Shown here one piece after another: positions 32,537-55,147 of a DNA stretch of 64,000 nt. Source of the DNA: Aminobacterium colombiense DSM 12261. GTDB lineage: Bacteria; Synergistota; Synergistia; Synergistales; Aminobacteriaceae. The stretch spans positions 434,001 through 498,000 of the forward strand of contig NC_014011.1 in the NCBI RefSeq assembly GCF_000025885.1. Direction: 5' to 3'. Positions within the stretch are counted from its first letter, which is position 1; each line of letters starts with the position of its first letter. Below the pieces are notes generated by a model, which saw only the letters and a program-made list of their open reading frames with translations, was not told the origin of the DNA and ran no database searches. Position numbers and translations under genes: made by a program.

Positions 32537-33229
32537 TTATTCTTCTTCTACGCTTGTATAATCTCCAGGGTGTTGCCTCAGGAAAGCCAAAAGACTTCGT
32601 TTCGTATCCTCGATATGGCTGCCCATTTCAGCTATAGCCTTCTTGCAGTCGCCATGCAGTACGGCATCTATGATAGCGAGGTGCCCTTTAAGGAACACAC
32701 CCATAATCGTTGGGTCGGATTGCATAGAGTAGGGGCGGCACAGATTGATCAAATCAACAATGTTGTTGAGTGTTTTATGAAGATACTTATTGCCGCTGCA
32801 CTCATAAAGGAAGCAGTGAAAGCGGCGGTCTTCAGTCAGATATTCTTCGTGGGATGTTTGGCCGGACATTGCAGAAAAAATTTCGCGAAAAAGCTTCAGA
32901 TCCTTGATTGGAGGATTCTCGCATACGTTTTCTATGGCGATAATTTCTAGTGCCTGTCTCAGTTCGTACAGATCAGAGGCATCCTTGAGAGAGGGTAAAG
33001 TGACAAAAGCTCCTCTCCGAGGAGTCAGGGTGATAAGCCCAGTTTGGCTCAATTGCCGAATAGCTTCTCGAACCGGAGTCCTGGAAACAGCCAACTGTTC
33101 AGCAAGCTCTATCTCAGAAAGCTTAGAGCCTGGTTTCAAAACGCCATTTACGATCGCGTCTTTCAACTTTTCATAAACAATCTGTCTCAACCCCTGGTTT
33201 GTGGCTGGGGTTAGTGTATTTTGGTCCAT
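32537..33229 (-). CDS. GntR-family regulator (FCD domain)
   Basis: A 230-residue GntR/FCD regulator. The winged helix contains GVLKPGSKLSEIELAEQLAVSRTPVREAIRQLSQTGLI-type sequence, and the C-terminal helical domain has the metal-type residues DRRFHCFLYECSGN and a late His (EMGSHIED). ATG 33229 follows GAGGAGGATT. It is the last gene of a leftward operon with the cobalamin adenosyltransferase and the IclR regulator, back to back with the carboxylate operon that it may control. Confidence 0.9.
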   Translation of the reverse strand: MDQNTLTPATNQGLRQIVYEKLKDAIVNGVLKPGSKLSEIELAEQLAVSRTPVREAIRQLSQTGLITLTPRRGAFVTLPSLKDASDLYELRQALEIIAIENVCENPPIKDLKLFREIFSAMSGQTSHEEYLTEDRRFHCFLYECSGNKYLHKTLNNIVDLINLCRPYSMQSDPTIMGVFLKGHLAIIDAVLHGDCKKAIAEMGSHIEDTKRSLLAFLRQHPGDYTSVEEE

Positions 33230-33321
33230 AGTCACAATCCTCCTCTAAACCAAGCACTTTGCACCCATTATACACTAATTGAAAAGCTTTGTGCTCTTTT
33301 TCTCTTTCTCGTCGAATCATG

Positions 33322-33855
33322 TTACTGGCGACATTCGCTTTTTTCTTCCTGCGTTCGCGCCAGATGATCGTACCAGAGAGAGAGAGCATAAATAACATCA
33401 GAAAGCCGGTTAATATAGGAATATCCTTCTTCCTTTAATTCTTTTGAGCGGAAAAGTTTCACCGCTAAACGTTCTGCCCTTCGAGCGACAGTTCTTGCTA
33501 CGTGTAATGCGGCTCCTGCTTTCGAATCGCCGGGCCGGACAAAACGAAAATTCCTTTCTGTTACATTTCCCACTTTATCTATAATTGCTTCAAGAGCTTC
33601 AATTTTTGGGCAGGGTAGGCCGGGGAAAAGAGCTAAGTAACCCATTAACAGCCCCAATTGCTGTTCAAGCCAACAGAGATTTTCACAAATTTCTTCGTAT
33701 TCGCAGAGAGCCCTTGCCATCCCTACATGGGCCTGGCACTCATCAATGGTTCCAAAAACTTCTACCCTGAGGTGATCTTTAGGAACCCGATCACCATTCC
33801 CGAGACTTGTCTCACCAAAATCTCCACCCTTGGTTGTGATCCAGGTTTCAGCCAC
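33322..33855 (-). CDS. PduO-type ATP:cob(I)alamin adenosyltransferase
   Basis: A 177-residue enzyme that makes adenosylcobalamin from cob(I)alamin and ATP. Family motifs are TTKGGDFGETSLGNGDRVPK (N-terminal ATP-binding region), VEVFGTIDECQAHVG and, near the C-terminus, GDSKAGAALHVARTVARRAER. GTG 33855 follows AAGGGAGTGG; a longer frame starts at 33903. It lies between two regulators in one operon, so an adenosylcobalamin-dependent mutase or dehydratase is probably part of the regulated pathway; none is encoded in this window. Confidence 0.9.
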   Translation of the reverse strand: MAETWITTKGGDFGETSLGNGDRVPKDHLRVEVFGTIDECQAHVGMARALCEYEEICENLCWLEQQLGLLMGYLALFPGLPCPKIEALEAIIDKVGNVTERNFRFVRPGDSKAGAALHVARTVARRAERLAVKLFRSKELKEEGYSYINRLSDVIYALSLWYDHLARTQEEKSECRQ

Positions 33856-33912
33856 TGTCTGCCACTCCCTTCTTAATTCGTGCCAGGTCTTGAAAATGTG
33901 CACGCTATTCCG

Positions 33913-34716
33913 TTAGTCCTGTAAATGAGGAAATTTCGTGGGCTTTCTTTCTACGGTTAGTTCTTCAGGGGCTCCAAGGGCGATAGATAGTTCACGGCTT
34001 TCATGAAGGAGGGCAAGGATGATGCGAGGAACAACGTCGTCTGTAAATCGGATGCTGGGTCCTGAAATGGTTAGGCAGGCTATGGGAAGTCCCGTGAAAT
34101 TAAATATGGGACAAGAAACTGAAGAGACGCCGGGTTCCCTTTCCGCAATACTGGTTGCATACCCATCGTCTTTTACCTTAGTTGCCCTATCTATAAGAAT
34201 TGTCCGCTTGAGGCGCACTTCTTCAGGTGCGGCATCAAATACAGCATCCACTTCCTCAAGAGCCATGTAAGCCAGAAAACAGCGTCCTGCCGCTCCCGCC
34301 CAGAGGGGAAAACGGTCGCCGGGATTTGCAAAGCGTTTGAGAGGATAGGTACTTGATACCTGTTCACAGCATATGCGCCATATGCCTTTGCGCTGGTATA
34401 AACTAACCGTCTCGTTGAATGTATCCCTCAATTTCCGCATATGTGGAAGAGCTACATTTTTTGTAGGATCGCTGGCCTTGAAAATTGCTCCCATACGATA
34501 ACATTTCCAGCCAAGCTGGTATAGGTTTCCCTCACATTTATCTAGAAAACCCTCCTCACAAAGCACTGCAGTGATACGGGAAGCCGTCGGCAGTGGTGCG
34601 TTGATCTCTTCCGCTATTTCAGTCAGTGTCCGATGGGGATTGTCCCAGGTAAAAGAGTCTAAGACGGCGAGACACTTACGAATTGATGAGGCTCCTTTTG
34701 TTTTTTGGGGTCTCAT
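33913..34716 (-). CDS. IclR-family regulator
   Basis: A 267-residue IclR-type regulator. The N-terminal winged helix is SIRKCLAVLDSFTWDNPHRTLTEIAEEINAPLPTASRI. The C-terminal effector domain holds IRRC-like turns (KGIWRICCEQV, RFPLWAGAAGRCFLAYM, AEREPGVSSVSCPIFN). IclR proteins commonly bind small carboxylates. ATG 34716 follows GAAGGGAGA; the frame extends upstream to 34788 without a better site. It is divergent from the lyase operon across a 320-base region with repeated TAGAGT boxes. Confidence 0.9.
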   Translation of the reverse strand: MRPQKTKGASSIRKCLAVLDSFTWDNPHRTLTEIAEEINAPLPTASRITAVLCEEGFLDKCEGNLYQLGWKCYRMGAIFKASDPTKNVALPHMRKLRDTFNETVSLYQRKGIWRICCEQVSSTYPLKRFANPGDRFPLWAGAAGRCFLAYMALEEVDAVFDAAPEEVRLKRTILIDRATKVKDDGYATSIAEREPGVSSVSCPIFNFTGLPIACLTISGPSIRFTDDVVPRIILALLHESRELSIALGAPEELTVERKPTKFPHLQD

Positions 34717-35035
34717 TGTCATTCTCCCTTCTGTGTTAAATCCCTTTATACGATCGGGTGTTGCTCTCTTCTCTCTGGTAGATAGCATTAGAGTAGAGTC
34801 ATAAAAAATATATTTTCAGCAATTATCTGCAATTTTATCCTTTCTTCATACTCTATCAGAAAGTAGAGTTTTTCGCTCCCTATCACTAGAGATGAAGAAG
34901 GGATGAATTTCTACACTTTGTTTAACCGTGTATTAAACATGATATTTCTTACTTGTTTGCACTTGCTTTATTTTAATTTATTTTATAATATGAAAGCTAC
35001 TTCCACAATATAAAATAATCTAAGGAGGAGCCTTC
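34717..35035. promoter_or_regulatory. Divergent control region with TAGAGT repeats
   Basis: This 320-base region between iclR-like and lyase genes has no reading frame of note. TAGAGTAGAGT lies at 34789-34799. An inverted pair ACTCTA-8-TAGAGT lies at 34850-34869, a plausible operator for the adjacent IclR protein. A TATAAT at 34984-34989 with AT-rich upstream DNA (TTGCTT 15 bases or TTGCAC 21 bases before) is the likely rightward promoter, followed by the AAGGAGGAG ribosome site. Confidence 0.5.
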
Positions 35036-35923
35036 GTGAAAAAATCTACTATTTTGCGTCAATTGCTTGAGAAGAGAGAGGCCCTTGTAGTTCCGGGCGC
35101 TCATGATGTTCTTTCCGCAAAGCTCATTGAAAAGGTTGGTTTTAAGGCGTTGCAGGTAAGTGGTTTTGGTTTGGCGGCCACGCTTCTTGGTTTGCCTGAT
35201 ATGGCTTTTCTTTCTTTTGAGGAAATGCGAAATTTCACCCGCAATATAGTTGACGCAGTGAATATTCCTGTAATGGCCGATGCAGACACTGGCTTTGGTA
35301 ATGCGATCAATGCCATGTATGTTACCGAAAAGCTCATCAAAGCTGGTTGTGCCAGTATGAACATAGAAGATCAGATGTTTCCCAAACGATGTGGCCATAT
35401 TGAAGGAAAAACTATTGTACCTTGTGATGAAATGGTTTTAAAAATCAAAGCCTGCGCCAAAGTTCGAGATGAACTTGATCCCGACTTTGTGATCAATGCC
35501 CGTACAGACTCTATTGCTGTTTCTGGCATTGACGAAGCCATTCGCCGCGGCAATGCTTACGCTGAGGCCGGCGCAGACATGATTTTTGTAGAGGCTCCTC
35601 GCACTATCGAAGAAATTGAGCGTGCCGTTAAAGAAATCGACGCCCTGGTGAGCATTAACTTCTTCGATAGCATCGAAGGTGGTAAAACTCCCCTTCTTCC
35701 CGTAAATCAGATGAAAGAGCTCGGAGTGGCTCGTATCAGCGTGCCGGTAGGATCGGTTTTTGCTGCGGCGAAGGGAGTTCAGAACTACCTTGAAGCCATT
35801 AAAGACGATATTGCTCCTGATCGAAAGGAAGTACTCTTCTCCTTTGACGAATTTAAAAATATCGTAGGAGTTCCCGGATTCCGCGAACAGGAAAAAGAAT
35901 ATCTTCCTAAATTTGTTGATTAA
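35036..35923 (+). CDS. Isocitrate lyase/PEP mutase-superfamily lyase
   Basis: A 295-residue alpha/beta-barrel enzyme. Active-site features are PGAHDVLSAKL, VMADADTGFGNA (metal-binding acidic residues), NIEDQ and KRCGH (residues 117-121). The KRCGH cysteine loop marks C-C lyases such as 2-methylisocitrate lyase, 2,3-dimethylmalate lyase and related enzymes, as opposed to PEP mutases. It should cleave a 2-hydroxy di- or tricarboxylate into two carboxylates, one of them a 2-oxo acid. It starts at GTG 35036 after AAGGAGGAG. It is the first gene of the carboxylate operon; the exact substrate is open. Confidence 0.9.
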   Translation: MKKSTILRQLLEKREALVVPGAHDVLSAKLIEKVGFKALQVSGFGLAATLLGLPDMAFLSFEEMRNFTRNIVDAVNIPVMADADTGFGNAINAMYVTEKLIKAGCASMNIEDQMFPKRCGHIEGKTIVPCDEMVLKIKACAKVRDELDPDFVINARTDSIAVSGIDEAIRRGNAYAEAGADMIFVEAPRTIEEIERAVKEIDALVSINFFDSIEGGKTPLLPVNQMKELGVARISVPVGSVFAAAKGVQNYLEAIKDDIAPDRKEVLFSFDEFKNIVGVPGFREQEKEYLPKFVD

Positions 35924-36637
35924 TTGAAAAGTCCTGATATGAGTATTGGTTTTCGAGTCTTTACCCAGCGAGACCTTCCCCCGAAAGACCTGGTGGAGAA
36001 GTTTAAACATATTCCTGCAGCGAACATTGCAGACGGAATGAATCGTTCCGCTGCCATGGCTTCCTATATTCGTCTCATGACCGCACCAACGGAATGCAAT
36101 ATGGTGGGTGTGGCTCTGACAGTGCGTGCTCGTGGCGGGGACAACCTTATGTTCCATAAGGCTTTGAACATGGCAGAAGAGGGAGATGTAATTGTCCTCT
36201 CGAATGAAGGGGATCGAAGCTATGCTCTCATGGGGGAGATGATGGCTCTTTATGCCCGCCATAAAAAGGTGGCTGGAATAGTTATCGAAGGCCCGGTTCG
36301 TGATGTTGAAGCTCTGTATAGCCTGGGGGTACCGGTCTATGCTACAGGCTCTACGCCCGGCGGTCCTTATAAGGATGGCCCGGGAGAAGTTAATGTGGGA
36401 ATTTCCTGTGGCGGCATCTTTGTCTGCCCCGGGGATATCATCGTTGGCGATGCCGATGGGGTCATAGTTGTTCCCAAGGGCCTGGCCCGACAATGTCTTG
36501 AAGGAGGCCGTCGCCTGCTTTTAAACGAAGAGGTTAAGGGTCCCCGACTGGCTGATGGCACAGGTGATCGTAGCTGGGTTGAAAAAACTCTCGACCAAAA
36601 AGGCTGCGAGACCATAGACGGTATATGGCTTCCCTAA
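35924..36637 (+). CDS. RraA-like aldolase/decarboxylase family protein
   Basis: A 237-residue RraA-fold protein. The family includes 4-hydroxy-4-methyl-2-oxoglutarate aldolase, oxaloacetate decarboxylase and the RNase E inhibitor RraA. Typical blocks are IPAANIADGMNRSAAMA, GGDNLMFHKALNMAEEGDVIV, GIVIEGPVRDVEAL and the GDADGVIVVPKGLAR metal loop. In this operon an aldolase/decarboxylase role is much more likely than RNase control. The start is TTG 35924 (immediately after the lyase stop) or ATG 35939; neither has a clear ribosome site, so coupling is probable. Confidence 0.88.
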   Translation: MKSPDMSIGFRVFTQRDLPPKDLVEKFKHIPAANIADGMNRSAAMASYIRLMTAPTECNMVGVALTVRARGGDNLMFHKALNMAEEGDVIVLSNEGDRSYALMGEMMALYARHKKVAGIVIEGPVRDVEALYSLGVPVYATGSTPGGPYKDGPGEVNVGISCGGIFVCPGDIIVGDADGVIVVPKGLARQCLEGGRRLLLNEEVKGPRLADGTGDRSWVEKTLDQKGCETIDGIWLP

Positions 36638-36652
36638 GTGGAGGTAAGGACT

Positions 36653-37549
36653 GTGGCTGAATTATCTTTGGGTTTTGTAGGATTTGGAGAAGTTTCCTTT
36701 TGCATCTCTTCAGGACTCCGGGACGAAGGACTGTCAGGTATATGTGCCTACGATGTGGTGCTGGGAAGCGGGACACTCTACGAGGAAAACCTTCGTAAAC
36801 GGGCCAATGAAGCCAATGTTATTCTTTGTGATACGCCAGAAGAGTTGTTCAGATCGTGTAAAGTGATTGTCTGTGCTGTTCAGGCTCCATATGCAGGCCA
36901 TGCTGCCAAGTCTGCCCTTTCCCATATGTCGGCGGGATCTCTGTATGTTGACGTGACCACAGCTGCGCCTGCTGAGAAAGAACGCTGGGAAAAGGAATTT
37001 CAGGCCAGGAGCATTTACTTTGCAGATTCGGCTATGATGGGTCCTCTTACAATCAACAGGCATAAGGTGCCTATGATAGCCTCAGGCTGTGGTGCGAGTC
37101 TGTGGCAGGAGAAGATGGTTCCGCTGGGAATGAAGATCGATGTAGTAAAGGGGCCAGCAGGAGATGGAACACGGATAAAGCTGGTCCGTAGCGTTTTCAT
37201 GAAAGGACTAGGCGCACTTCTAGTTGAAACTTTTCTCCTGGCCCATAGGAGCGGTCTGGAAGATGTTGTTCTTAAATCAATATCCGCTACGGTGGATCAG
37301 CTTCCTTTCGAAAAAACAATTTCTCGAATGCTTGGTGCCGATATGATCCATGCGGAACGCAGAGCCCACGAAGTGGCGGAATCCATTGCTTTAATGGAAA
37401 CTCTCAGATTGAAACCTGTTATGGCTGCAGCAACGAAAGAAAGACTGGAGCTCTCCGCCGCAATGGGATTAAAAGATGAACTTGCAGGGTTAGCCCCGAA
37501 AACAATAGAAGAAGCTTGTTCTGTGTGGGATAGAAAAAATTACCGCTAG
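36653..37549 (+). CDS. NAD(P)-dependent beta-hydroxyacid dehydrogenase-like protein (DUF1932 tail)
   Basis: A 298-residue two-domain oxidoreductase. The N-terminal Rossmann domain begins LSLGFVGFGEVSFCISSGL (GxGxxS-type nucleotide loop), with a conserved DVTTAAPAEK block. The C-terminal helical domain carries the catalytic-type Lys in GDGTRIKLVRSVFMKGL and matches the DUF1932 group of 6-phosphogluconate dehydrogenase-like enzymes. GTG 36653 follows GGAGGTAAGG; the upstream frame to 36638 overlaps the ribosome site. It probably oxidises or reduces a hydroxy acid within the same pathway. Confidence 0.88.
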   Translation: MAELSLGFVGFGEVSFCISSGLRDEGLSGICAYDVVLGSGTLYEENLRKRANEANVILCDTPEELFRSCKVIVCAVQAPYAGHAAKSALSHMSAGSLYVDVTTAAPAEKERWEKEFQARSIYFADSAMMGPLTINRHKVPMIASGCGASLWQEKMVPLGMKIDVVKGPAGDGTRIKLVRSVFMKGLGALLVETFLLAHRSGLEDVVLKSISATVDQLPFEKTISRMLGADMIHAERRAHEVAESIALMETLRLKPVMAAATKERLELSAAMGLKDELAGLAPKTIEEACSVWDRKNYR

Positions 37550-37613
37550 TTTGGCTTATCTCAGAAAATCTGTACTGTTTCTATCATATAAAGAATAATG
37601 AGGAGGTATGGAT

Positions 37614-38564
37614 ATGTTTCGCAAAAGTATGGTCAGTGCTTTAATCGCAGCAAGTCTAGTATTTGCAGTTGCGGGAGTTTCCTGCGCCGCGGAATTTGCC
37701 CGAATCGGGACCAGCAGTGTTGGCGGTGGATTCTATCTCATAGGTAACACGATTGCTCAGCTGGGAAACCAGGAAAAGAATGGCATCAACTACACAGCTG
37801 TTACTGGCGGTTCTGCGAAGAATTTGATGGCGCTTGCCAAAAAAGACATGGAATTTGGCCTTGCACAGTCTGCAACAGTTGATGAAGCCTGGAACGGAAC
37901 AGGCGGCTTTGAGGGGCGTGCCCTCAAGCAGCTTCGTTTTGTGACGGCGATCTACCCTATGCCCGCACATATCCTTATAAGTGGCGATGGGATCGAAAGT
38001 ATTGCAGATCTCAAAGGGAAGAAGATAGACTACGGCCCAATTGGCAACGGCATCGATACAAACTGCCGTATTGTTCTTGGCGCTTATGGCATAAAGGATG
38101 AGGATATCACCATCGACCGTTATGGCCGCTCCGAGGTCGTAGAGGCCCTTCAGACAGGCACTGTTAATGGTCATATCTGGCTTACTACCTATCCCAACGC
38201 TCAGATTACAGAGATGATTTCCAAGAATGTGCGTCTTCTTTCTATCGATGAGGAACAGCGTCAAACAATTCTGAAACAATGCCCGTTCTTTGCCTCTGCT
38301 GTAATTCCTGCAGGCACCTACAAGGGATTCGATAAGGATCTACCTACAATTGCAGCTGTGGGAGCCTTGATAACCTATGCTGACATGAGCGACGAAGTTA
38401 TCTACAAGACCGTTAAGATGATGTACGAGAACTCACAGTTCTTAAAAGATCGGCTTCCTAACTACTTTGCAAACTTCAGCCTTGAAAACGCTCTCAATGG
38501 TTGCTCTATGGAAGTTCACCCCGGAGCCCTTAAATACTATAAAGAAGCCGGTTTAGTTAAGTAA
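37614..38564 (+). CDS. TAXI-family TRAP transporter, solute-binding protein
   Basis: A 316-residue periplasmic binding protein of the TAXI group. The signal peptide is MFRKSMVSALIAASLVFAVA, with cleavage near SCAA. Family motifs are GTSSVGGGFYLIGNTIAQL, TGGSAKNLMAL, ADLKGKKIDYGPIGNGID and VHPGALKYYKEAGLVK. It captures a carboxylate, perhaps glutamate-, citrate- or C4-like, for the fused permease downstream. ATG 37614 follows GAGGAGG at 7 bases. A terminator-like hairpin after the stop probably sets a high binding-protein to permease ratio. Confidence 0.94.
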   Translation: MFRKSMVSALIAASLVFAVAGVSCAAEFARIGTSSVGGGFYLIGNTIAQLGNQEKNGINYTAVTGGSAKNLMALAKKDMEFGLAQSATVDEAWNGTGGFEGRALKQLRFVTAIYPMPAHILISGDGIESIADLKGKKIDYGPIGNGIDTNCRIVLGAYGIKDEDITIDRYGRSEVVEALQTGTVNGHIWLTTYPNAQITEMISKNVRLLSIDEEQRQTILKQCPFFASAVIPAGTYKGFDKDLPTIAAVGALITYADMSDEVIYKTVKMMYENSQFLKDRLPNYFANFSLENALNGCSMEVHPGALKYYKEAGLVK

Positions 38565-38586
38565 CCCACGTTTTTATAACGTATAG

Positions 38587-38612
38587 GGGGGCGATCAAGC
38601 CCCCTTCTTTTT
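38587..38612 (+). terminator. Intercistronic terminator/attenuator
   Basis: GGGGGC (38587-38592) pairs with GCCCCC (38599-38604) around GATCAA, followed by TTCTTTTT. It lies between the binding-protein and permease genes of one operon, so partial termination is expected. Confidence 0.75.
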
Positions 38613-38649
38613 ACACACTAGCAAAGGATTTTACATTGGGGGTGTTGTT

Positions 38650-40590
38650 GTGAGTTCTCCAGTCTCCTCTGTTTCATCGAACAGTTCTGATGCGGCTGTC
38701 ACTGCCAAGAAGGTCGGCAAGCGGCGATCCCTGACAGGATTTTCGGGCAAGCTTATTATGATCTTGGCGGTTTCCCTCGCTATTTTCCAGCTTTATACGG
38801 CCTTTTTCGGGTTGTTGCCTACGATGAAACAGCGCAGTTTCCACGTAGCTTTTGTAATGACCATGATTTTCCTTCTTTATCCAGGGACTAAGGATTCTCC
38901 ACGAGATAGAGTACCTTTTGTGGACTGGATATTGGCTTTAGCTGCTGCCGGTTGCGCTCTTTATGTCTTTTTCGGTTATGAAGATATCGCTATGCGGGCA
39001 GGATTGATCTACGATTATGAATTGATACTTGGCGGGATTTTTACAGTGCTGGTTTTTGAGGCGGGACGCCGCGTCTTAGGCAACGCTCTTCCAGGCTTCT
39101 GTTTCCTTTTCCTCCTTTTTGCCTATTTTGGACGCTCAATGCCTGGCCCTATACAGCACTTCGGGCTCTCCATTCCTCGTATCATTGAAGAGCTCTATCT
39201 TACTACAGATGGATTATTCGGCCTTGTGACAGGAGTATCTGCTACTTACATATACCTGTTCGTCTTGTTCGGGGCCTTTTTGACGTCTACTAAGGCATCG
39301 GAATTCTTTAATGACTTCGCTATGGCTCTGACAGGACATCTCAAAGGCGGTCCAGCCAAAATTGCCGTAGTGTCCAGTGCTCTTATGGGAACCATTAGCG
39401 GCAGTACATCTGCAAACGTGGCAACCACTGGCGCCTTTACGATCCCCCTAATGAAAGAAATAGGGTACAAGCCACATTTTGCTGGGGCTGTGGAAGCGGC
39501 AGCATCCACAGGTGGACAGATCATGCCTCCTGTTATGGGAGCAGCGGCGTTTATCATCGCCGACACTCTTGGGGTGCCTTATACCAGAGTGCTTACTGCC
39601 GCAATCATCCCCGCCCTTCTTTTTTTCTGGGGCATATGGTGTTCCCTCAGTCTTGAGGCTTCCAAACTAGGTCTTAAAGGTCTTCCGAAGGATAGGCTGC
39701 CTAAGGTTGGCAAGGTTCTTCTGACCAGCGGCTACAAGGCCATCCCACTTTTTGTAATAGTCTATTTTCTTGTAAAAGGTTACAATCCGCTCTATTCAGG
39801 ATGCTGGGGCATTTTCAGCTGCGTTCTCCTCAGTTTCGTAAAAAAATCTGATCGGCTTAACGTAAAGACCCTTGTATCTACCCTTGAAAGCGGTTCAAAA
39901 GGGGCTCTTTCTGTTGCTATGGCTTGTATTATTGTCGGAGTGGTCATAGGCATGATGGGAGCTACAGGTGTGGCTCTGCGCGTCGGTGACGCGATTCTTG
40001 CCATGACCCAGGGACACCTGATAATAACTCTTGTGGTGACCATGATCATTGCCATGCTTCTTGGCATGGGGATGCCTACAACTGCTAGTTACGTCATGGC
40101 TAGTGCTGTGGCCGCTCCCGCTATGGTCTTGCTCGGAGTGAGGCCTTTGGACGCACATCTGTTCGTATTCTTCTACGCAGTGCTCTCATCGGTGACTCCA
40201 CCGGTCTGCGTAGGGGCTTATACCGCAGCCGGCATAGCTGGAGCTGACCCAAACAAAACGGCATTCGCCGCGGTCAAACTGGCCCTGTCCGGGTTTATCG
40301 TTCCCTTTATCTTTGTTTTAGCCCCAGAGATTCTGTTGACCAACGTTACCAGTTGGTTTGTGACGTTTCAGGCCATGATCTCAGCTATCGTGGGCGTATT
40401 CCTGCTGGCTTCTGCCGCTGAGAACTATATAATGGCGCGCCTTCGCTGGTATGAGCGGCTCCTCGCTTTTGCAGGTGCCTTGGGATTGCTTTATCCAGGC
40501 ACGGTCACCGACCTCTGTGGCCTGGCAGTACTTGTCGTTCTTTATGTAGTTACAAAAAAGCGAGCGAAAGATTTGCCAGATCTTGCTTAA
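38650..40590 (+). CDS. TAXI TRAP transporter, fused 4TM/12TM permease
   Basis: A 646-residue inner-membrane protein that fuses the small (DctQ-like) and large (DctM-like) TRAP subunits, as usual for TAXI systems. Many hydrophobic helices are present; DctM-type motifs include GTISGSTSANVATTGAFTIPLM, AASTGGQIMPPVMGAAAFI, LGMGMPTTASYVMAS and SSVTPPVCVGAYTAAGIAGADP. It drives sodium-coupled import of the ligand held by the preceding binding protein. GTG 38650 follows a GGGGG run. The polar N-terminal ~25 residues (Ser-rich) are cytoplasmic. Confidence 0.94.
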   Translation: MSSPVSSVSSNSSDAAVTAKKVGKRRSLTGFSGKLIMILAVSLAIFQLYTAFFGLLPTMKQRSFHVAFVMTMIFLLYPGTKDSPRDRVPFVDWILALAAAGCALYVFFGYEDIAMRAGLIYDYELILGGIFTVLVFEAGRRVLGNALPGFCFLFLLFAYFGRSMPGPIQHFGLSIPRIIEELYLTTDGLFGLVTGVSATYIYLFVLFGAFLTSTKASEFFNDFAMALTGHLKGGPAKIAVVSSALMGTISGSTSANVATTGAFTIPLMKEIGYKPHFAGAVEAAASTGGQIMPPVMGAAAFIIADTLGVPYTRVLTAAIIPALLFFWGIWCSLSLEASKLGLKGLPKDRLPKVGKVLLTSGYKAIPLFVIVYFLVKGYNPLYSGCWGIFSCVLLSFVKKSDRLNVKTLVSTLESGSKGALSVAMACIIVGVVIGMMGATGVALRVGDAILAMTQGHLIITLVVTMIIAMLLGMGMPTTASYVMASAVAAPAMVLLGVRPLDAHLFVFFYAVLSSVTPPVCVGAYTAAGIAGADPNKTAFAAVKLALSGFIVPFIFVLAPEILLTNVTSWFVTFQAMISAIVGVFLLASAAENYIMARLRWYERLLAFAGALGLLYPGTVTDLCGLAVLVVLYVVTKKRAKDLPDLA

Positions 40591-40653
40591 TAGTAATGTT
40601 CGGGCTTCCCTCTTGTAGAGGAGACCTTTATACAATATAAGGGGGGTTAAAAA

Positions 40654-40920
40654 ATGATTGTGCATAGTGCACAGGCTGGTTCCGACGGAAAAAGTGACTG
40701 CTTTGTCACAGTTAAGCCAGCAGAAACAATGGAATGGAAGTATCAAGGTAGAAATAGCCAGCTTTTTGCCACTCGTACAGACTCGCTGATTCGAGAGACT
40801 CTGGATCGTTATGGTTCGCCCAAAGTTTGCCTGATAGTAGAGGATTTTGGGGCCTTGCCCTTTGTGATCCGTGCGCGGGTCGAGGTGGCTCTTGAGCGGG
40901 CCTTGAAGGAAAGGGCGTGA
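40654..40920 (+). CDS. citD: Citrate lyase acyl carrier protein (gamma subunit)
   Basis: An 88-residue CitD-type acyl carrier protein. Ser14 (AGSDGKSDC) aligns with the serine that carries the phosphoribosyl-dephospho-CoA prosthetic group in E. coli CitD. The C-terminal segment FGALPFVIRARVEVALERAL matches the family. It forms a complex with the beta (CitE) and alpha (CitF) subunits encoded next. The genes for attaching the prosthetic group (citX, citG) and for acetylation (citC) are not in this window. Confidence 0.93.
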   Translation: MIVHSAQAGSDGKSDCFVTVKPAETMEWKYQGRNSQLFATRTDSLIRETLDRYGSPKVCLIVEDFGALPFVIRARVEVALERALKERA

Positions 40921-40927
40921 AAAAATA

Positions 40928-41815
40928 GTGAAACTTCGCCGTTCATTGCTTTATATACCAGGAAATAATCCTGCAATGCTGCAAAGCTGCCCATCTCTCG
41001 GTGCCGATTGTGTGATCCTTGACCTGGAGGATGCGGTTGCTCCAGCACATAAGGATGAAGCCAGACGCCTGGTGGCCTATGCGTTGCGCTGTCTTTTTTT
41101 CGATTGTGTTGAAAAAGTGGTCAGGATCAATGATGTGTCCACCCCTTGGTGGGAGCTGGATTTAGAAGAAATTGTTCCGGCAGGGCCAGATGTGATTCGT
41201 TTGCCAAAAGCAGAGTCAGTGGAGAATATTCGCATGGTGGATAACCGCATCACAGAATTAGAGAAGGCAAACGGACTTTCAGAAGGCGGAATAGAGCTTC
41301 ATATTCTACTAGAATCGGCCCAGGCTGTAGAAAATGTAGCGAATCTGGTAAGAAGTTGTAAACGGGTAAAAGGTGTCGGTCTTGGTGGACAAGACTTGAC
41401 AGCAGACATGGGAATTCGCAAAACATCCTCAGGAGAAGAACTGGCTTATGCAAACGGTCATATGATCCTGGCTGCCAAAGCAGCGAAGATTGACTGTTTT
41501 GACTCAGTTTATACAGATATAAACGATGGAGAAGGATTGTTGACCAATACCCGCAAAGCCGCAACCATGGGTTTCTCGGGCAAGTCGGCGATCCACCCTT
41601 CACAGGTCAGGATCATCAATCAGGGATTCTACCCTTCCGAAGACATTCTATCTCATGCTCAGGACGTCATCGCTGCGGCGAAAATTGCCAGAACAGAGGG
41701 CAGAGGAGCTTTTAGCGTCAACGGGAAAATGGTTGACGGCCCAGTGATTCGGCAGGCCATGAATGTTCTGGCCCAGGCAGGCATTCCTTGTAACTCTGAG
41801 GAGGTGTTACCATGA
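40928..41815 (+). CDS. citE: Citrate (or citramalate) lyase beta subunit
   Basis: A 295-residue HpcH/HpaI-superfamily barrel that cleaves the acyl-carrier-bound substrate to oxaloacetate (citrate lyase) or pyruvate (citramalate lyase). Motifs are RRSLLYIPGNNPAML, CVILDLEDAVAPAHKDEAR (metal Asp/Glu), VRINDVSTPW, VIRLPKAES, LLESAQAVEN and GFSGKSAIHPSQV. It starts at GTG 40928, with the ribosome site inside the end of citD. Its stop overlaps the citF ATG. Confidence 0.93.
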   Translation: MKLRRSLLYIPGNNPAMLQSCPSLGADCVILDLEDAVAPAHKDEARRLVAYALRCLFFDCVEKVVRINDVSTPWWELDLEEIVPAGPDVIRLPKAESVENIRMVDNRITELEKANGLSEGGIELHILLESAQAVENVANLVRSCKRVKGVGLGGQDLTADMGIRKTSSGEELAYANGHMILAAKAAKIDCFDSVYTDINDGEGLLTNTRKAATMGFSGKSAIHPSQVRIINQGFYPSEDILSHAQDVIAAAKIARTEGRGAFSVNGKMVDGPVIRQAMNVLAQAGIPCNSEEVLP

Positions 41816-43377
41816 CCATGGTGAGAAATGCGGCAGGGCGCCTTGTTCCCGATGAGATTCCAGGTATTGGTTCAGTTCGTCCCTTCGAAGGAGTAACAGG
41901 TGTTGCCCCATCTCCAGCTTTTAACACCATTATGGAGGTCGAGCGCGATGTGGTTCCAATGGGCACCAATAAAATTGCCCCAGACTTGCGCACGGCTATT
42001 GAACGTTCAGGCCTCTGCGATGGCATGACCATCGGCTTCCATCATCACCTCCGCAATGGTGATAGAGTGGTTGCTCAGGTTCTTGAAGAGCTTAACTGCA
42101 TGGGCTTTAAAAACCTCGTATTGATGAGTTCTGCTCTGTTGGAATGCCATAATTTTGTAGTGGATTACATCCGTTCTGGCCTTATTAGCCAGATCTATGC
42201 TCCAATTCGTGGTGCCGTAGGCGACTATTTCCAGACTGAGAACGAAAAGCTTCCGCCAGTTATTATCCGTACCCATGGAGGGCGGGCAAGAGCCGTAGAA
42301 GAAGGATCCATTGCTGTTGATGTAGCTTTCATAGGTGCTTCGGCCTGCGATATGTCCGGCAATATGACCGGCATGAGCGGCCCATCGGCTTTCGGCTCCC
42401 TTGGCTACGGTATGCAGGACGCTCGTTTCTCTCGACATGTTATCGCCGTTACAGACAACCTTGTTGAATATCCACTGAGGCCGCGGGTCTCCATCCCTCA
42501 GTATCTTGTTCATCAAGTGGTGGTACTGGATTCCATTGGCGATCCCCAGAAACTGGCTACAGGTTCGATACGTATTACCAAAAGCCCAACGCAGTTGGCA
42601 CTGGCATATCACGCTTATGAGCTCATAGCCGCATCTGGCGCTATCTGTCCCGGGTTCTCTTACCAGGCAGGCGGTGGCGGAATCTCCATGGCAGTGACCC
42701 AGTATGTACGTGAGTATATGCAGCGAAAAGATATTACTGGAAGCTTTGCTCTCGGTGGTATCACTGCTGATATGGTTTCCCTTCTGGAAGAGGGTAGATT
42801 CCAGGCCCTCTTTGACGTTCAGAGCTTCGATCCAGCCATGGGGGCATCAATGTTGAGGAACCCCACACACTACGAAATCGACGCTTCCTGGTATGCAAAC
42901 CCATTAAATGCCGGGTGCATGACCCATCAGCTTGATGTGGCCGTGCTGGGAGCTCTTGATGTGGACGTTGACTTTAATGTCAATCTTCTCACAGGCCATG
43001 ATGGATATCTTCGCAGCGGAATGGGCGGCCACCCAGATGCAGCAGGGGGTGCAAAGCTGACGGTAGTCGTGTTGCCGAGCTTCCGTCGAGGATTGCCATC
43101 CATAAAGAAGAGAGTACAGACTATCTGTACTCCAGGAGCCAGCGTGGACGCAATTGTCACCGAGCGTGGCATTTGTATAAACCCCCGCAGGGAAGATCTT
43201 CTAAAACAGGCTTTGGATAGTGGCTTGAATGTGGTGGATATTGAGAAACTCCGCCAGGATACAGAAGCTCTTACCGGGGTGATGGATCCTGTTGAGTTTG
43301 ACGAATCTCGAGTCGCCGCGGTAGTAGAATATCGCGACGGATCGATTCTTGACGTTGTATATGGAATGAAGCGTTAA
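41812..43377 (+). CDS. citF: Citrate (or citramalate) lyase alpha subunit
   Basis: A 521-residue CoA-transferase-like alpha subunit that exchanges acetyl for citryl (or citramalyl) on the acyl carrier protein. Recognisable parts are DGMTIGFHHHLRNGD near the start, GGRARAVEEGSIAVDVAFIGASACDMSGNMTG, the glycine-rich SYQAGGGGISMAV and LTGHDGYLRSGMGGHPDAAGGAKL. It overlaps citE (ATGA) after GAGGAGGTG and ends the operon before a hairpin terminator. Confidence 0.95.
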   Translation: MTMVRNAAGRLVPDEIPGIGSVRPFEGVTGVAPSPAFNTIMEVERDVVPMGTNKIAPDLRTAIERSGLCDGMTIGFHHHLRNGDRVVAQVLEELNCMGFKNLVLMSSALLECHNFVVDYIRSGLISQIYAPIRGAVGDYFQTENEKLPPVIIRTHGGRARAVEEGSIAVDVAFIGASACDMSGNMTGMSGPSAFGSLGYGMQDARFSRHVIAVTDNLVEYPLRPRVSIPQYLVHQVVVLDSIGDPQKLATGSIRITKSPTQLALAYHAYELIAASGAICPGFSYQAGGGGISMAVTQYVREYMQRKDITGSFALGGITADMVSLLEEGRFQALFDVQSFDPAMGASMLRNPTHYEIDASWYANPLNAGCMTHQLDVAVLGALDVDVDFNVNLLTGHDGYLRSGMGGHPDAAGGAKLTVVVLPSFRRGLPSIKKRVQTICTPGASVDAIVTERGICINPRREDLLKQALDSGLNVVDIEKLRQDTEALTGVMDPVEFDESRVAAVVEYRDGSILDVVYGMKR

Positions 43378-43551: not shown

Positions 43552-43638
43552 GCCGGAGTGGCGGAATGGTAGACGCAGCGGACTCAAAATCCGCCGGGCC
43601 TCGGGTCTGTGGGAGTTCGAGTCTCCCCTCCGGCACCA
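43552..43638 (+). tRNA. tRNA-Leu (anticodon CAA)
   Basis: The acceptor stem GCCGGAG/CTCCGGC closes with discriminator A and an encoded CCA. The anticodon stem GCGGA/TCCGC encloses the loop CTCAAAA, giving anticodon CAA (codon TTG, leucine). The T arm GGGAGTTCGAGTCTCCC is standard, and a long variable arm (class II) is present. A strong terminator follows. A restriction-modification system starts ~230 bases downstream, and a degenerate copy of this tRNA's middle and 3' region occurs near 55.07 kb. Confidence 0.96.
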
Positions 43639-43656
43639 TAATAGAAAAGACATTTT

Positions 43657-43698
43657 CCCCTTTCGATTCTGCTAAAGCAGAACGAAAGGGGATTTTTT
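43657..43698 (+). terminator. Terminator after tRNA-Leu
   Basis: CCCCTTTCG (43657-43665) pairs with CGAAAGGGG (43683-43691) and the inner TTCTGC pairs with GCAGAA around TAAA, with one bulged A. ATTTTTTATTTT follows. Confidence 0.92.
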
Positions 43699-43793
43699 AT
43701 TTTGAAGTTTCGCAAATCCCACATTACTTTATTTGCATTTATAAAATAAAGTGCAATATAAAATTTAACATTTCCAATATTAATATTTTAGTA

Positions 43794-43822
43794 TTTACAT
43801 ACCATGTTATTGGGGCTATAAT
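43794..43822 (+). promoter_or_regulatory. Promoter of the restriction-modification operon
   Basis: TTTACA (43794-43799), a 17-base spacer and a perfect TATAAT (43817-43822), 42 bases before the first gene of the system, in AT-rich DNA. Confidence 0.75.
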
Positions 43823-43863
43823 TTCATTATTAAAATAGAGCAGAAAGGAGCTCCTTCCTAGAG

Positions 43864-45453
43864 ATGAGAATAGATAATGCCTTAAACGTCTTATTCCAGA
43901 GGCAGCTATCTTCAAGAGAGCAGTTGCTTAATGAAATGCTTCGGGTAAAAATGACCCAAAAGAAACTCAAAGAGAATTTTGATAAAACAGCTAACATACA
44001 AAGAGACAGAGAAGTTTTATTTCAGCTTATGAAAAAAACGACAGAAGATCACTTGGGGTTCTTCCCTACTGATAGAGATGATTTTTTAGAAATTTTTGAA
44101 GCCTTAAAAGACATAGACCTTGTCGATTTCACTATTGAAATATACAAAAATGATCGAATGGGCACCGTTATTTCCCCCCAATATCTTACTGAATATATAA
44201 GTGAAAGAATACAGCGGCTCTGTCCCCAAAAAGTGCTTATTACAGAAGCTGAAAAGCATCTGTCAGGGCTAGGGGATTTGATAAAACGCTTTCCAAACAT
44301 AAAAATCACATTAACAACGCATCTTAAGCCAATGCACATTCTTTTACAGTTGGCCTTCGGAGAATACGAACATGTAAAAATCCGATTCGAGTCTATTTAT
44401 ATGCCATGCCTAGAAAATGAAAAATACGATTATGTCTATTCATTGCCAATTTTTAGCAATAGGCCAGAAGGAACGAGCCAAACCTTCTTGACAAGAGATA
44501 GTGACGGTATTGCTTTCGAGAACATGTTGAATCATCTTGATGAGAATAGCACTTTAGATATTATTGTTCCTGCAAAAATAACTTTTGCCAGTCTTGGTTA
44601 TGAAAAGCTACGGTCGTATATAACAGAGAATTTTTATGTGGAAAACATGTATCTTCTTCCAGAAGGAACATTTCGCCCGGCGACAGCTATAAAAACATAT
44701 CTATTCTCTGTAACTTCCTTACCTAAAGAACAAGTCAATATTGGAACTTTCGAACTTCAAGAAGAGAAAGTTAATATCAGAGATAAACAGACGATATCAA
44801 TCAAAGATTTTTTATCTCATAAAGATTGGCGAATAGAGCTTCTTTTAGCAAACGACAATGAAAACATCCGATGCTTTAGAGATTCTGATCTCCCAAAAGT
44901 AAAACTCAAAAATGTAGCTGAAGTCTTCAGAGGAAAGTCTATATTAAAAAAAGACCTAGGTCCTGGCAACGTAGCTGTGCTTAACATTTCTAATATTAAA
45001 GATGGTGAGATAGATTATCACGATTTAGATACTATCGATGAGGAAGAACACAAGATAAAACGTTATGAACTTAGTTCTGGTGACGTTGTTCTTTCTTGTC
45101 GAGGAACATCTATTAAATCTGCTGTGTTTGAAGCTCAAGATAAAACAATTATTGCTTCTGCAAACTTGGTCGTAATTCGTCCCAAGGAAAAAGTAAAGGG
45201 CGAGTTTATAAAAATCTTTTTAGAAAGCCCAGTTGGTCAGGCCATGATTCAAAGTTTCCAGCGAGGAACAATCCTCATGAATATTAATTATGCTGATATT
45301 ATGGAGATGGAAATTCCGTTTCTTCCGATATACGAGCAACAAAAAATGATTGAGACGTATTGTCAAGAGTTTAAAACATATAAAGAAGCTATCAACCTTG
45401 CGGAATCCCGTTGGTCGAATATAAAAATGAACATTTACAACAACTTGCTATAG
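43864..45453 (+). CDS. Pseudo-methylase/specificity-subunit fusion of the type I R-M locus
   Basis: A 529-residue protein upstream of hsdM. An N-terminal helical region (~1-110) precedes a divergent N6-adenine methylase-like core. At the motif IV position it reads [13 protein letters not shown] (Ser-Leu-Pro-Ile-Phe at ~193-197) instead of NPPF/Y, and no DPxxGSGG-type motif I is seen, so catalysis is unlikely. The late methylase-like block [21 protein letters not shown] and [20 protein letters not shown] is kept. From ~345 to the end there is one HsdS-type target-recognition domain ([17 protein letters not shown] to [15 protein letters not shown] plus a coiled coil). It may supply an alternative specificity or regulate the hsdM-S complex. 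Confidence 0.75.
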
Positions 45454-45466
45454 GAGGATCAGAGCC

Positions 45467-46948
45467 ATGTCTGTGAACTTGGAATTTGAAGATAAATTAT
45501 GGGAAATGGCAGATAAACTGCGAGGCAATATTCAGCCTTCAGATTATAAGGATGTTGTTCTTGGTCTTATCTTTTTGAAATATATCTCTGATAGTTTTGA
45601 AGAAAAATACAACGAACTGGTAGCAGAAGAAGAAGGTTTCGAAGAAGACAGAGATGCCTACGTAGCAGAAAACATTTTTTATGTTCCACCCAGCGCCAGG
45701 TGGGATTTTATTAAAAAGAATGCGAAACAGAGCACCATTGGACAAATTATAGATGATGCCATGATAACTATTGAACGAGAAAATAGAAACCTAAAAGGAG
45801 TCCTTCCCAAAAATTACGCGAGGCCTGAGCTTGATAAAGCAAAATTAGGAGAGCTCGTTGATTTGTTTTCCTTCAACCTCGGAAACAAAGAAGCCAAAGC
45901 TCAAGATATTCTAGGCAGGGTATATGAGTATTTCTTAGGGAAATTCGGTTCCAGCGAAGGTGAATTTTATACGCCGCCTAGCATCGTAAAACTTCTAGTT
46001 GGCATGATTGAACCGTATAAAGGAAGAGTTTATGACCCTTGTTGCGGTTCTGGCGGCATGTTTGTGCAGTCATCCCGTTTTGTTGAAGAGCACCAGGGGC
46101 GAAAAGATGATATCCACATCTTCGGTCAAGAATATACGGCTACGACCTGGAGACTTTGCAAAATGAATCTGGCTATCAGGGGAATTGATGGAAATCTTGG
46201 AGCGCGAGACGCAGATACATTTGGAAATGATCTGCATAAAAATATAAGAGCCGATTATATCTTGGCTAATCCTCCTTTTAATGTTAGCGATTACACCTTA
46301 ATTCCAGATGATGCCCGTTGGAAATATGGAATTCCGCCAGAAAAGAACGCCAACTACGCCTGGATTGAACATATTATCAGCAAACTTTCTCCTACCGGAG
46401 TGGCGGGCTTTGTCTTGGCTAACGGATCTATGAGTACAACCACTAAAGCCGAAGCGGAAATAAGAAAGAACATCATAGAAGCAGGACTTGTAGATTGCAT
46501 TGTTACTATGCCACCAAACCTTTTTTACAATGTAACCATTCCTGTTTGTCTGTGGTTTATCTCTAAAAAGCGAGAAAACAAGCAAGATAAAATTCTCTTT
46601 ATTGATGCTCGTAAAATGGGAACAATGGTTACCCGCAAGCATAGAGAATTTTCTGATGGAGAAATAGCAAAGATCTACGACACCTACCACAACTGGCGCG
46701 ATAATAAAAAAGAATATAAAGACATACAGGGTTTTTGCAAATCTGCCGATATTGAAGAAGTAAGAGAGCACGAATATATACTGACTCCTGGCCGATATGT
46801 GGGCATAGAAGAAGTGGAAGACGACGGCGAACCCTTCGAAGAGAAGATGACGCGGCTAACAGGTGAACTGGCAGAGATGTTCGCTAAATCCCACAAACTA
46901 GAAGAAGAGATCAAGCAGCGATTAGGAGCGATTGGTTATGAGTTCTAA
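45467..46948 (+). CDS. hsdM: Type I restriction-modification methylase subunit
   Basis: A 493-residue HsdM N6-adenine methyltransferase. The N-terminal helical domain ([32 protein letters not shown]) is followed by [10 protein letters not shown], the SAM motif [10 protein letters not shown] (~190) and the catalytic NPPF ([11 protein letters not shown], ~268). The C-terminal helices interact with the S subunit. TAGGAGG precedes ATG 45467, 13 bases after the fusion gene. It modifies host DNA in complex with HsdS. The hsdS start overlaps its end by 11 bases. Confidence 0.97.
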
Positions 46949-48107
46949 TGAGTGGAGAGAAGTTAAGTTAGGAGAAATCGTAGATATTGAAATGGGACAA
47001 TCTCCCAAATCCGAATTCTATAATACAGAAGGTTTAGGCGTCCCTTTTTTACAAGGCAATAAAACTTTTGGGATGATATACCCGAAATTTGATGTATTTT
47101 GTACAAATGTTAAAAAAATCGCAATCCAAAATGACATTTTAATGAGCGTAAGAGCTCCTGTTGGAGATTTAAACATCGCTCAGGAAAAAATTTGTATTGG
47201 GCGTGGTATTTGTGCCATGAGGATGAAAAATAGAAATAACTTGTATTTATTTTATTTGCTAAAGCACAATGTAAAAAATTTAAAGAAAACAGAGAGTGGT
47301 ACTGTTTTCGGGGGAGTGAATAAAAAAGATATTATGGGGCTTAGTGTTATGTGGACCCCCAATCTGCAGGAGCAAAAAACCATCGCAGCAACTCTTTCTT
47401 GCCTTGATGACAAGATAGAGCTCAATAATCGAATTAATAAAACACTTGAGGAAATGGCTCAAGCAATCTTCAAAAGCTGGTTTGTCGATTTTGAACCATT
47501 TCAAAATGGCGAATTTATTGATAGCGAATTGGGCAAGATCCCTAAGGGGTGGCGAGTTGGAACATTAGATGAAATTATAGAATTATTTGATTCAAAACGC
47601 ATTCCTTTATCAAGTAGGAAAAGAGAAAAAATGCAAAAAGTCTATCCGTACTATGGAGCAACTTCGCTTATGGACTATGTCGATGATTATATATTTGATG
47701 GAGTATATGTTTTATTAGGGGAAGATGGTACCGTTATAGATGGAAAAGGGTACCCTATTTTGCAATATGTTTGGGGTAAATTTTGGGTTAATAATCATGC
47801 TCATGTTTTGAAAGGTAAAAATGGATTTAGTGAAGAGAGTCTTTATATATTATTGAAGAATACTAATGTTAAATCAATTGTAACAGGAGCAGTACAACTA
47901 AAAATTAACCAATCTAATTTAAAATCGGTTAAGGTTATTATCCCATCAGTTGATAAAATTGCAGAATTTAATTACTTGATAGCCCGTTTTTTTGCAGAAA
48001 AGAGGAGACTTAGTGAGGAAAATCAAATATTAATATCAGTCCGCGATGCCTTACTGCCTAAACTTATGTCTGGGGAGGTTAGAGTACCTATTGAGGAGGT
48101 GCTATAG
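46938..48107 (+). CDS. hsdS: Type I restriction-modification specificity subunit
   Basis: A 389-residue HsdS with two target-recognition domains: TRD1 ~1-150 ([21 protein letters not shown]), the central conserved coiled coil ~140-185 ([32 protein letters not shown]), TRD2 ~200-350 ([23 protein letters not shown]) and a C-terminal coiled coil. It sets the bipartite DNA target, which cannot be read from sequence. ATG 46938 has AGGAG 9 bases upstream inside hsdM. It is notably AT-rich, in keeping with frequent TRD exchange. Confidence 0.95.
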
Positions 48108-51100: not shown

Positions 51101-51302
51101 AAAAGACCTGACGCTATCTATTAGAAGGAATATCAGCGTAGACTGGGCTATTCGTGAAAATGTACAGGCAAAGATGAAAATGGACATCAAGCGGCTGTTG
51201 AAGCGCTATAACTACCCTCCGGATAAAACTCCCCAAGCAGTGGATACTGTGATAGCGCAGGCAAAACTCATGTGCCAAAAAGAAGTTGCATACGGAAGCT
51301 AA
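48108..51302 (+). CDS. hsdR: Type I restriction-modification endonuclease/translocase subunit
   Basis: A 1064-residue HsdR. The N-terminal PD-(D/E)xK nuclease is seen as [20 protein letters not shown] (~141-160). The SF2 translocase motor has Walker A HTQGSGKS (~298), [29 protein letters not shown] and the C-terminal [32 protein letters not shown]. Helical C-terminal regions bind HsdM/S. GAGGAGG precedes ATG 48108, which follows the hsdS stop directly. The gene is full length with no frameshift, so the system is probably active. Confidence 0.97.
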
Positions 51303-54043: not shown

Positions 54044-55045
54044 ATGAAACCGATCAAGAGAATTGAAGCTCTATTAGAGGGAAAAAGGTTGGAAACACCG
54101 GCTATCAATTTGTGGAAACATTTCCCACCCTATGATGAAGACCCCAAAATGTTAATTAAGAAAACGATCCAATTTCAGGAACGTTTTCATTGGGACTTTG
54201 TAAAAGTAACTTATCAAGGGCTGTTTTCTATACAGGATTGGGGGTCAAAAATTAAATGGCCCACCAGAGATTGTGAATGGCCCAATACATGCGCTGGTGT
54301 AGGTGTCGTTACAGATTATTCGATCAAGAATGTAGAAGATTGGAAAAAACTCCATGTTCTTCCCATGGATGAAGGTTCTATGAAAGATACGATAGATGTG
54401 GCAAAAGGTGTTATCGATCATTATAAAGGCGAGGCGCCTGTTGTAGTTACTGTATTTAACTCTTTGACAACGGCTCAAAAAATGAGCGGCGATAAAATGT
54501 TTATCCATATGAGGCAAAATCCAGAGGCATTTAGAGAAGGAATCGAAACCATTACCCAGACAACAATTAATTATGTTAAGGAATTAGTAAACGCTGGTGC
54601 CGATGGAATATTCTTTGCAAGTCAGCTGGGCAATTATGACAAGATGAGTGTTGCTGAGTATGAAACTTTTGGTCGCCCATATGATCTCAGTATCCTTGAG
54701 CATGCAAAGAAAATGTGGTTTAACATTATGCACATGCATGGCAATGCTCCGATGTTTGAAATGATGAGCCAATATCCAGTTCAAGCTTTGAATTGGCATG
54801 ATCGTTTGGTAGATATAGACCTGCGTAAAGGACGGGAATTATGCGGCGATAAGATTCTAATTGGCGGGGTTGATGAGTTTACTGTTTTGCCTAATGGTAG
54901 TGACGATGAACTCAAGGCTCAGCTGCTTGATGCTCTTCAGCAGGTATCTGATGGTCGAATTATTTTAGGTCCCGGTTGCTGTGTTCCGTCTAGCATTAAT
55001 GAAGATCGTTTTGAGTTGGCCAAAAAACTGCTTCTAGAGCTTTAA
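54044..55045 (+). CDS. Uroporphyrinogen decarboxylase-family protein (methyltransferase-like)
   Basis: A 333-residue URO-D superfamily barrel. Its size and C-terminal blocks (WHDR, GGVDEF, GPGCCVPSSIN at ~309-319) fit the MtaA/MtbA-like corrinoid methyltransferase branch rather than heme synthesis. The usual zinc motif HxC is replaced by HMHG (His230, His232), while the downstream Cys312/Cys313 is kept. No corrinoid protein gene is adjacent. AAGGAGGG precedes ATG 54044. It lies just before the tRNA-like remnant and a strong terminator. Substrate unknown. Confidence 0.85.
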   Translation: MKPIKRIEALLEGKRLETPAINLWKHFPPYDEDPKMLIKKTIQFQERFHWDFVKVTYQGLFSIQDWGSKIKWPTRDCEWPNTCAGVGVVTDYSIKNVEDWKKLHVLPMDEGSMKDTIDVAKGVIDHYKGEAPVVVTVFNSLTTAQKMSGDKMFIHMRQNPEAFREGIETITQTTINYVKELVNAGADGIFFASQLGNYDKMSVAEYETFGRPYDLSILEHAKKMWFNIMHMHGNAPMFEMMSQYPVQALNWHDRLVDIDLRKGRELCGDKILIGGVDEFTVLPNGSDDELKAQLLDALQQVSDGRIILGPGCCVPSSINEDRFELAKKLLLEL

Positions 55046-55056
55046 GTCAAACAGCA

Positions 55057-55100
55057 CGGCACTCAAAATCTGCCAGGCTAGATCTCGAAGGAGTTTTCAG
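55057..55100 (+). repeat. Degenerate copy of tRNA-Leu anticodon-to-T-arm region
   Basis: ACTCAAAATC followed by YGCCRGGC matches the anticodon loop and 3' stem of the tRNA-Leu gene at 43.58 kb (17 of about 19 positions). Weaker similarity continues through TCT..GGAGTT, resembling the variable/T arm. No acceptor stem or CCA follows, so it is not a functional tRNA. It could be the far attachment site of an element that integrated into tRNA-Leu. Confidence 0.5.
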
Positions 55101-55103
55101 TGT

Positions 55104-55147
55104 ACTCAACCCCCACCTGGGTAACCAGTGGGGGTTGAGTCTTTTTT
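55104..55147 (+). terminator. Strong terminator after the URO-D gene
   Basis: ACTCAACCCCCAC (55104-55116) pairs perfectly with GTGGGGGTTGAGT (55128-55140) across an 11-base loop, followed by CTTTTTT. Confidence 0.93.

Follow-up and report, generated by a model that had tools for sequence, protein, structure and literature searches.

An organic-acid uptake and cleavage operon in Aminobacterium colombiense with a citrate lyase gene set that has lost its carrier serine

Here, we describe an operon of the anaerobic amino-acid fermenter Aminobacterium colombiense ALA-1T that combines genes for organic-acid uptake and C-C cleavage with a set of citrate lyase genes. The operon lies on the plus strand at positions 35036-43377 of a 64,000-nucleotide stretch of the genome (the window, Table 1). 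It codes for a lyase of the isocitrate lyase (ICL)/PEP mutase superfamily, an RraA-family protein, a DUF1932 dehydrogenase, a TAXI-type TRAP transporter, and all three subunits of citrate lyase: CitD, CitE, and CitF. An earlier sequence-only reading had named these genes, and all are indeed present with strong Pfam or NCBIfam family matches. Its proposal that the operon imports an organic acid and cleaves C-C bonds in it is borne out in outline by the transporter, the motifs of the lyase, and synteny. This reading missed the most unusual feature of the locus, namely an altered CitD together with the loss of the helper machinery of citrate lyase. As the best explanation for the whole, we tentatively propose, at somewhat less than even confidence, an uptake-and-cleavage operon with a CitEF that depends on CoA instead of a covalent carrier.

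Citrate lyase is a textbook enzyme that needs a covalently built-in CoA derivative and three helper proteins. CitG and CitX build this prosthetic group and attach it to CitD, and CitC acetylates the group (PMC10798043). CitD from A. colombiense reads AGSDGKSDC where other sequences read AG(T/S)xESxD. This change puts a lysine in place of Ser14, the phosphoribosyl-dephospho-CoA carrier site. Ser14 is kept in 122 of the 124 readable distinct CitDs of the phylum (126 distinct peptides, two truncated before the site); the only two exceptions are A. colombiense and the genome G076, which codes for arginine. CitD keeps eight of ten otherwise invariant positions, and what is lost is only the Glu and Ser of the motif. 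A single sequencing error is an unlikely cause of the change, which affects three neighboring codons and leaves the reading frame intact. In the complete genome of A. colombiense (one contig, 1,980,592 bases), CitX (PF03802) and CitG (PF01874) have no match, and CitC (PF08218) has nothing beyond a partial, CoaD-like one. CitX and CitG also have no match in G076, subject to the incompleteness of a metagenome-assembled genome (MAG), and the CitC-like match in this genome corresponds to a domain within a 648-residue protein in a polysaccharide-type locus. Loss of Ser14 is associated with absence of CitX/CitG with a Fisher p of ~0.008 to 0.013, a value that rests on small numbers and is also subject to MAG incompleteness. 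The A. colombiense proteins resemble the known system of CitDEF, CitC, CitX, and CitG in that all three subunit genes are present in one operon, CitF scores above its NCBIfam equivalog cut-off, and CitE retains the metal-site and Arg positions. In contrast to this system, CitD carries Lys for Ser14, the genome lacks CitC, CitX, and CitG, and the operon contains no TctABC-type transporter; CitD and CitE score below their equivalog cut-offs. Judged from these sequences, CitDEF cannot work as an ordinary citrate lyase. Missing Ser14, CitX, CitG, and CitC, it would be either dead or working in an undescribed way.

The absence of both the carrier serine and the genes for the prosthetic group suggests that CitF and CitE may act through free CoA. 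Isolated CitF and CitE are able to act on CoA thioesters. In the proposed cycle, CitF would convert acetyl-CoA and the acid to acyl-CoA and acetate, CitE would cleave the acyl-CoA to acetyl-CoA and an oxo acid, and CitD would remain as a structural subunit only. This one change, the use of free CoA, would remove the need for CitX, CitG, CitC, and Ser14 alike. The Lys or Arg that replaces the attachment serine perhaps helps to hold free CoA. We consider a CoA-dependent CitE/CitF without covalent carrier almost as probable as its opposite. The broader proposal that such an enzyme of the citrate lyase family, with a structural CitD and a substrate other than citrate, arose twice in Synergistaceae along with loss of the machinery is plausible but more tentative. 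As to the remaining genes, we propose that the TAXI-TRAP transporter imports a branched hydroxy-dicarboxylate of the 2-alkylmalate type, such as citramalate or 2,3-dimethylmalate, and that the lyase, which resembles petal death protein and dimethylmalate lyase, splits this acid to pyruvate and a short carboxylate. The DUF1932 dehydrogenase, as a side unit with RraA, would oxidize a related hydroxy acid to an oxo acid, which RraA would split or decarboxylate, again to pyruvate. A. colombiense ALA-1T ferments pyruvate, as well as serine, glycine, and threonine (PMC3035294). If correct, a citrate lyase version without carrier serine and helpers would show how this system comes to be lost and if an enzyme of this kind can do without the carrier. 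Operons of this kind also call for caution against annotating citrate fermentation wherever CitDEF is found.

The strongest competing explanation, which we regard as doubtful but serious, is that CitDEF is what is left of a citrate-fermentation operon, either non-functional or in decay. In this view, that operon would have lost its transporter, CitC, CitX, and CitG, CitD would have acquired mutations, and citDEF would persist only by virtue of its terminal position in a useful operon. Supplied alone, citrate, fumarate, malate, and succinate are not used by the strain (PMC3035294), and the congeners G006 and G007 contain no CitF. CitE/CitF from A. colombiense groups within the clade of citrate operons (TctABC, CitC, and CitXG) on a long branch of 0.78 substitutions per site, and CitF breaks nine invariant positions, the most of any sequence (the next breaks five). 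Both the long branch and the broken positions fit relaxed selection, and count against a working, carrier-free enzyme. Further observations weigh against the explanation that we propose for the operon as a whole. CitD of G076 starts with ATA (L068, G076:C29, ~9760-9970), which suggests that this CitD is decaying. The genomes G040 and G078 (95% and 98% complete) contain no CitX/CitG matches, yet keep Ser14. The D-X20-RD motif of RraA usually takes the form GD, and the window protein has GE in this place. Some homologous loci (G073, G074, and G076) contain neither RraA nor the dehydrogenase, and the acids named for the operon are candidates. On the other hand, several observations speak against a remnant. 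The three frames are all full length, have ribosome sites, and have starts that overlap or come close to overlapping. CitF and CitE keep 82 of 91 and 25 of 28 positions that are invariant in all other sequences, and the CitD motif loses the ES pair alone. Finally, G076 has an equivalent change in CitD next to intact CitE and CitF genes (L068, G076:C29), which evolve no faster than core genes (ratio 1.39; others 0.78-2.07). This relative-rate comparison was used for G076 only, because CitEF from A. colombiense comes from another clade than CitEF of the homologous operons, which makes the test invalid for this species. Overall, we find a carrier-free enzyme somewhat more likely than a remnant.

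The first enzyme of the operon is best interpreted, from its motifs and neighbors, as a lyase for a 2-alkylmalate-type substrate with pyruvate as a product. The closest solved relative both by sequence and by predicted fold (AlphaFold mean pLDDT 81) is petal death protein. The best matches comprise this protein (1ZLP) and 2,3-dimethylmalate lyase (3FA3; Dml from Eubacterium barkeri), which have the KxCGH loop in common with the window lyase. Identity to solved family members is below 40%, and identity to genes at syntenic positions in relatives is 65-78%. Alignments show that the KRCGH loop of the window lyase is accompanied by EGGKTP, a motif shared with petal death protein; with the closest fold, the enzyme displays the features that characterize petal death protein and 2-alkylmalate lyases. 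Unlike petal death protein and Dml, it contains a family-specific SIN(L/F)xD insertion before EGGKTP. Aligned methylisocitrate lyases carry EFGxTP at the EGGKTP site, and this replacement favors a 2-alkylmalate-like substrate over methylisocitrate. It is unlikely that the enzyme is a methylisocitrate lyase (PrpB) serving, with the rest of the operon, a route through 2-methylcitrate. The prpB equivalog is the closest equivalog model, and a second lyase copy of A. colombiense occurs with MmgE/PrpD and aconitase-like genes, but the score of 241 bits is far below the 354-bit cut-off, and the operon lacks PrpC, PrpD, and aconitase. We rejected the PrpB identity on this score and on the presence of EGGKTP where EFGxTP is expected.

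In a scan of genome contigs, relatives of this lyase turned up across many phyla; their neighbor is very often an aconitase-type hydratase of the LeuC/LeuD (DmdA/DmdB-like) type and sometimes a TAXI-TRAP transporter. These hydratase neighbors also point to a 2-alkylmalate-type substrate. They recall E. barkeri, in which Dml is paired with DmdA/DmdB; the window operon itself contains no hydratase. A literature search on dimethylmaleate hydratase returned a match only on gut microbiota in kidney disease. The operon places a widespread, uncharacterized family of lyases in the context of a transporter and a few candidate acids, and so makes the function of this family directly testable. The three-gene unit lyase - LeuC - LeuD is widespread, with examples in Acidobacteria, Aminicenantes, WOR-3, Chloroflexi, Planctomycetes, and one archaeon (L134, L135, L137, L138, L142, L147, L148, L150, and other loci). 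A. colombiense contains three lyase copies besides that in the window. One of them ends an operon of the order MmgE/PrpD (twice) - LeuC - LeuD - TAXI - TRAP - lyase (L080, G000:C1:1736001-1754000, 9046-17773), which may encode a full pathway for an acid resembling methylcitrate or dimethylmaleate. The other two form a tandem pair beside TRAP transporter genes (L081, G000:C1:1330001-1349000, 8747-12453) and share 45% and 43% identity with the lyase of the window. Tandem pairs that adjoin TAXI-TRAP genes also occur in L159 and L198.

Returning to CitD, one may ask if CitDEF could be a working acyl-carrier citrate lyase with a prosthetic group that is attached elsewhere, at Ser15, or made by unrecognized enzymes. 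Both exceptional CitDs contain Ser15, and the serine in G076 looks moved by one position relative to the closest relatives. However, position 15 varies in the other sequences (S, M, C, G, N), and the complete genome has no member at all of the CitG family, from which alone the precursor is known to come. We consider this explanation improbable.

The gene arrangement of the operon is not due to chance. Genes for the lyase, DUF1932, RraA, TAXI, TRAP, CitE, and CitF occur on one contig with a divergent IclR gene in six other Synergistaceae genomes (G001, G002, G011, G013, G015, and G018), and the order in related Synergistaceae is IclR / lyase - DUF1932 - RraA - TAXI - TRAP - CitE - CitF. With the operon or most of it recurring in related genera, the earlier view that this gene set is one of a kind can be abandoned. 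A shorter operon without RraA and dehydrogenase is present in G073, G074, and G076, and IclR / TAXI - TRAP - lyase without CitDEF in G099, G110, and G121, which belong to other families. Synteny across several genera therefore identifies the operon as a recurrent functional unit with TAXI-TRAP and the lyase as the core, under IclR control. The operons of G001, G002, and G018 additionally hold TctABC and LeuC-like genes, and those of G001 and G002 a second lyase. Several operon-bearing genomes also own a separate citrate-type CitDEF with TctABC, CitC, and CitX/CitG. The CitDEF copy in the lyase/TAXI operon therefore probably serves a substrate other than that of the citrate-type copy. The GntR/FCD regulator in the window is 30-32% identical to GntR of Synergistaceae citrate operons, which is a weak link.

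The TAXI binding protein and the fused permease both score above their family cut-offs. This pairing and a retained Gln93 position are common to the TAXI-TRAP systems VcGluP, TtGluBP, and the 2-oxoglutarate system of Proteus mirabilis. Unlike glutamate-binding VcGluP, the window protein has Phe at Tyr45 and Met at the amino-coordinating Glu125 (numbering as in PMC11574862). These substitutions suggest that the ligand likely has no amino group and that glutamate is probably not bound. The RraA protein is likely a class II pyruvate aldolase or oxaloacetate decarboxylase, judging from its sequence: it matches the subfamily PRK06201 and retains the Arg-Asp pair needed for this chemistry. It shares this pair and the RraA fold with HMG/CHA aldolases (LigK/ProA). 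Unlike these enzymes, it scores below the LigK equivalog cut-off (~134 bits; cut-off 179), carries a GE-X20-RD motif, and resides in an operon without an aromatic pathway. In Priestia, Rhizobium, and Methylobacterium plasmids, genes for DUF1932 and RraA again form a pair, which adjoins carboxylate transporters. Structure matches of the dehydrogenase are headed by structures of unknown function, followed by beta-hydroxyacid dehydrogenases; a literature search returned nothing on DUF1932 function.

The least probable explanation is a plain citrate operon, in which TAXI imports citrate, CitDEF cleaves it, and RraA decarboxylates oxaloacetate: RraA-type aldolases do show oxaloacetate decarboxylase activity (PMC5065237), and the DUF1932 and RraA pair in Priestia lies near a citrate:proton symporter, but the strain does not use citrate, several relatives own a separate citrate-type CitDEF operon, CitX, CitG, and CitC are absent from the genome, and the lyase and the dehydrogenase would be left without a role. 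Simple citrate fermentation, which the sequence-only reading had named as an outcome that would speak against it, is disfavored on the growth data (PMC3035294).

The same reading had linked the adenosyltransferase in the divergent operon to glutamate or nicotinate fermentation, and this link did not hold. Methylaspartase was not found in the A. colombiense genome, where the sole MAAL match is partial and weak, and neither was a GlmS-type (glutamate-mutase-type) protein. We rejected a glutamate/methylaspartate route to citramalate on these grounds. The sole clear mutase-type B12-binding protein is that of methylmalonyl-CoA mutase, in a cluster with MeaB and a decarboxylase, and this mutase is likely the client of the adenosyltransferase. 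The cluster fits propionate formation from 2-oxoglutarate and accounts for the adenosyltransferase. On 2-oxoglutarate, A. colombiense grows poorly, with propionate among the products (PMC3035294). The PduO-type adenosyltransferase is in none of the homologous operon loci examined; it is probably not part of the conserved unit, and we rejected it as a conserved component of the pathway.

Table 1. Features of the operon and of the divergent genes in the window
Feature	Position	Strand	Basis
GntR/FCD regulator	32537..33235	-	family match
PduO-type cobalamin adenosyltransferase	33322..33903	-	Pfam/NCBIfam match; not found in homologous loci
IclR-family regulator, divergent	33913..34788	-	family match (Pfam); present in homologous loci
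ICL/PEP mutase superfamily C-C lyase, petal-death-protein-like; KRCGH and EGGKTP	35036..35923	+	family match, motifs
RraA-family class II aldolase/decarboxylase (likely), PRK06201 subfamily; GE-X20-RD	35924..36637	+	family match
DUF1932 beta-hydroxyacid dehydrogenase, recurrent RraA partner	36638..37549	+	family match, synteny
TAXI-type TRAP solute-binding protein	37608..38564	+	Pfam/NCBIfam match
Terminator-like hairpin between TAXI and permease genes	38585..38606	+	pattern match only
Fused TRAP permease	38650..40590	+	Pfam/NCBIfam match
CitD (citrate lyase gamma/ACP), Lys at attachment serine; SDGKSD vs T/S-L-E-S-x-D	40654..40920	+	
CitE (citrate lyase beta), catalytic Arg/Glu/Asp positions retained	40928..41815	+	
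CitF (citrate lyase alpha)	41812..43377	+	

All operon genes have an intact codon structure. The spacings from the lyase gene to citF are 0, 0, 58, 85, 63, 7, and -4 bp, ribosome sites are readable, and the probable start of the RraA gene is the ATG at 35939. The hairpin between the TAXI and permease genes, a GC-rich element followed by a T run, is the sole strong terminator-like hairpin of the operon by pattern matching. It is a possible partial terminator and may set a high ratio of binding protein to permease. Directly after citF follow a tRNA-Leu gene and then a low-GC stretch (36-41% vs ~46%; 43552-51302) with genes for an HsdS-like protein, HsdM, HsdS, and HsdR, which make up a type I restriction-modification island adjoining the tRNA gene. 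A 529-residue protein encoded at 43864-45453 is HsdS-like in the C-terminal half, and the N-terminal half has no family match. Further downstream, at positions 54044-58843, a methyltransferase of the MtaA/CmuA type is encoded, and after it a DctP-DctM TRAP transporter.

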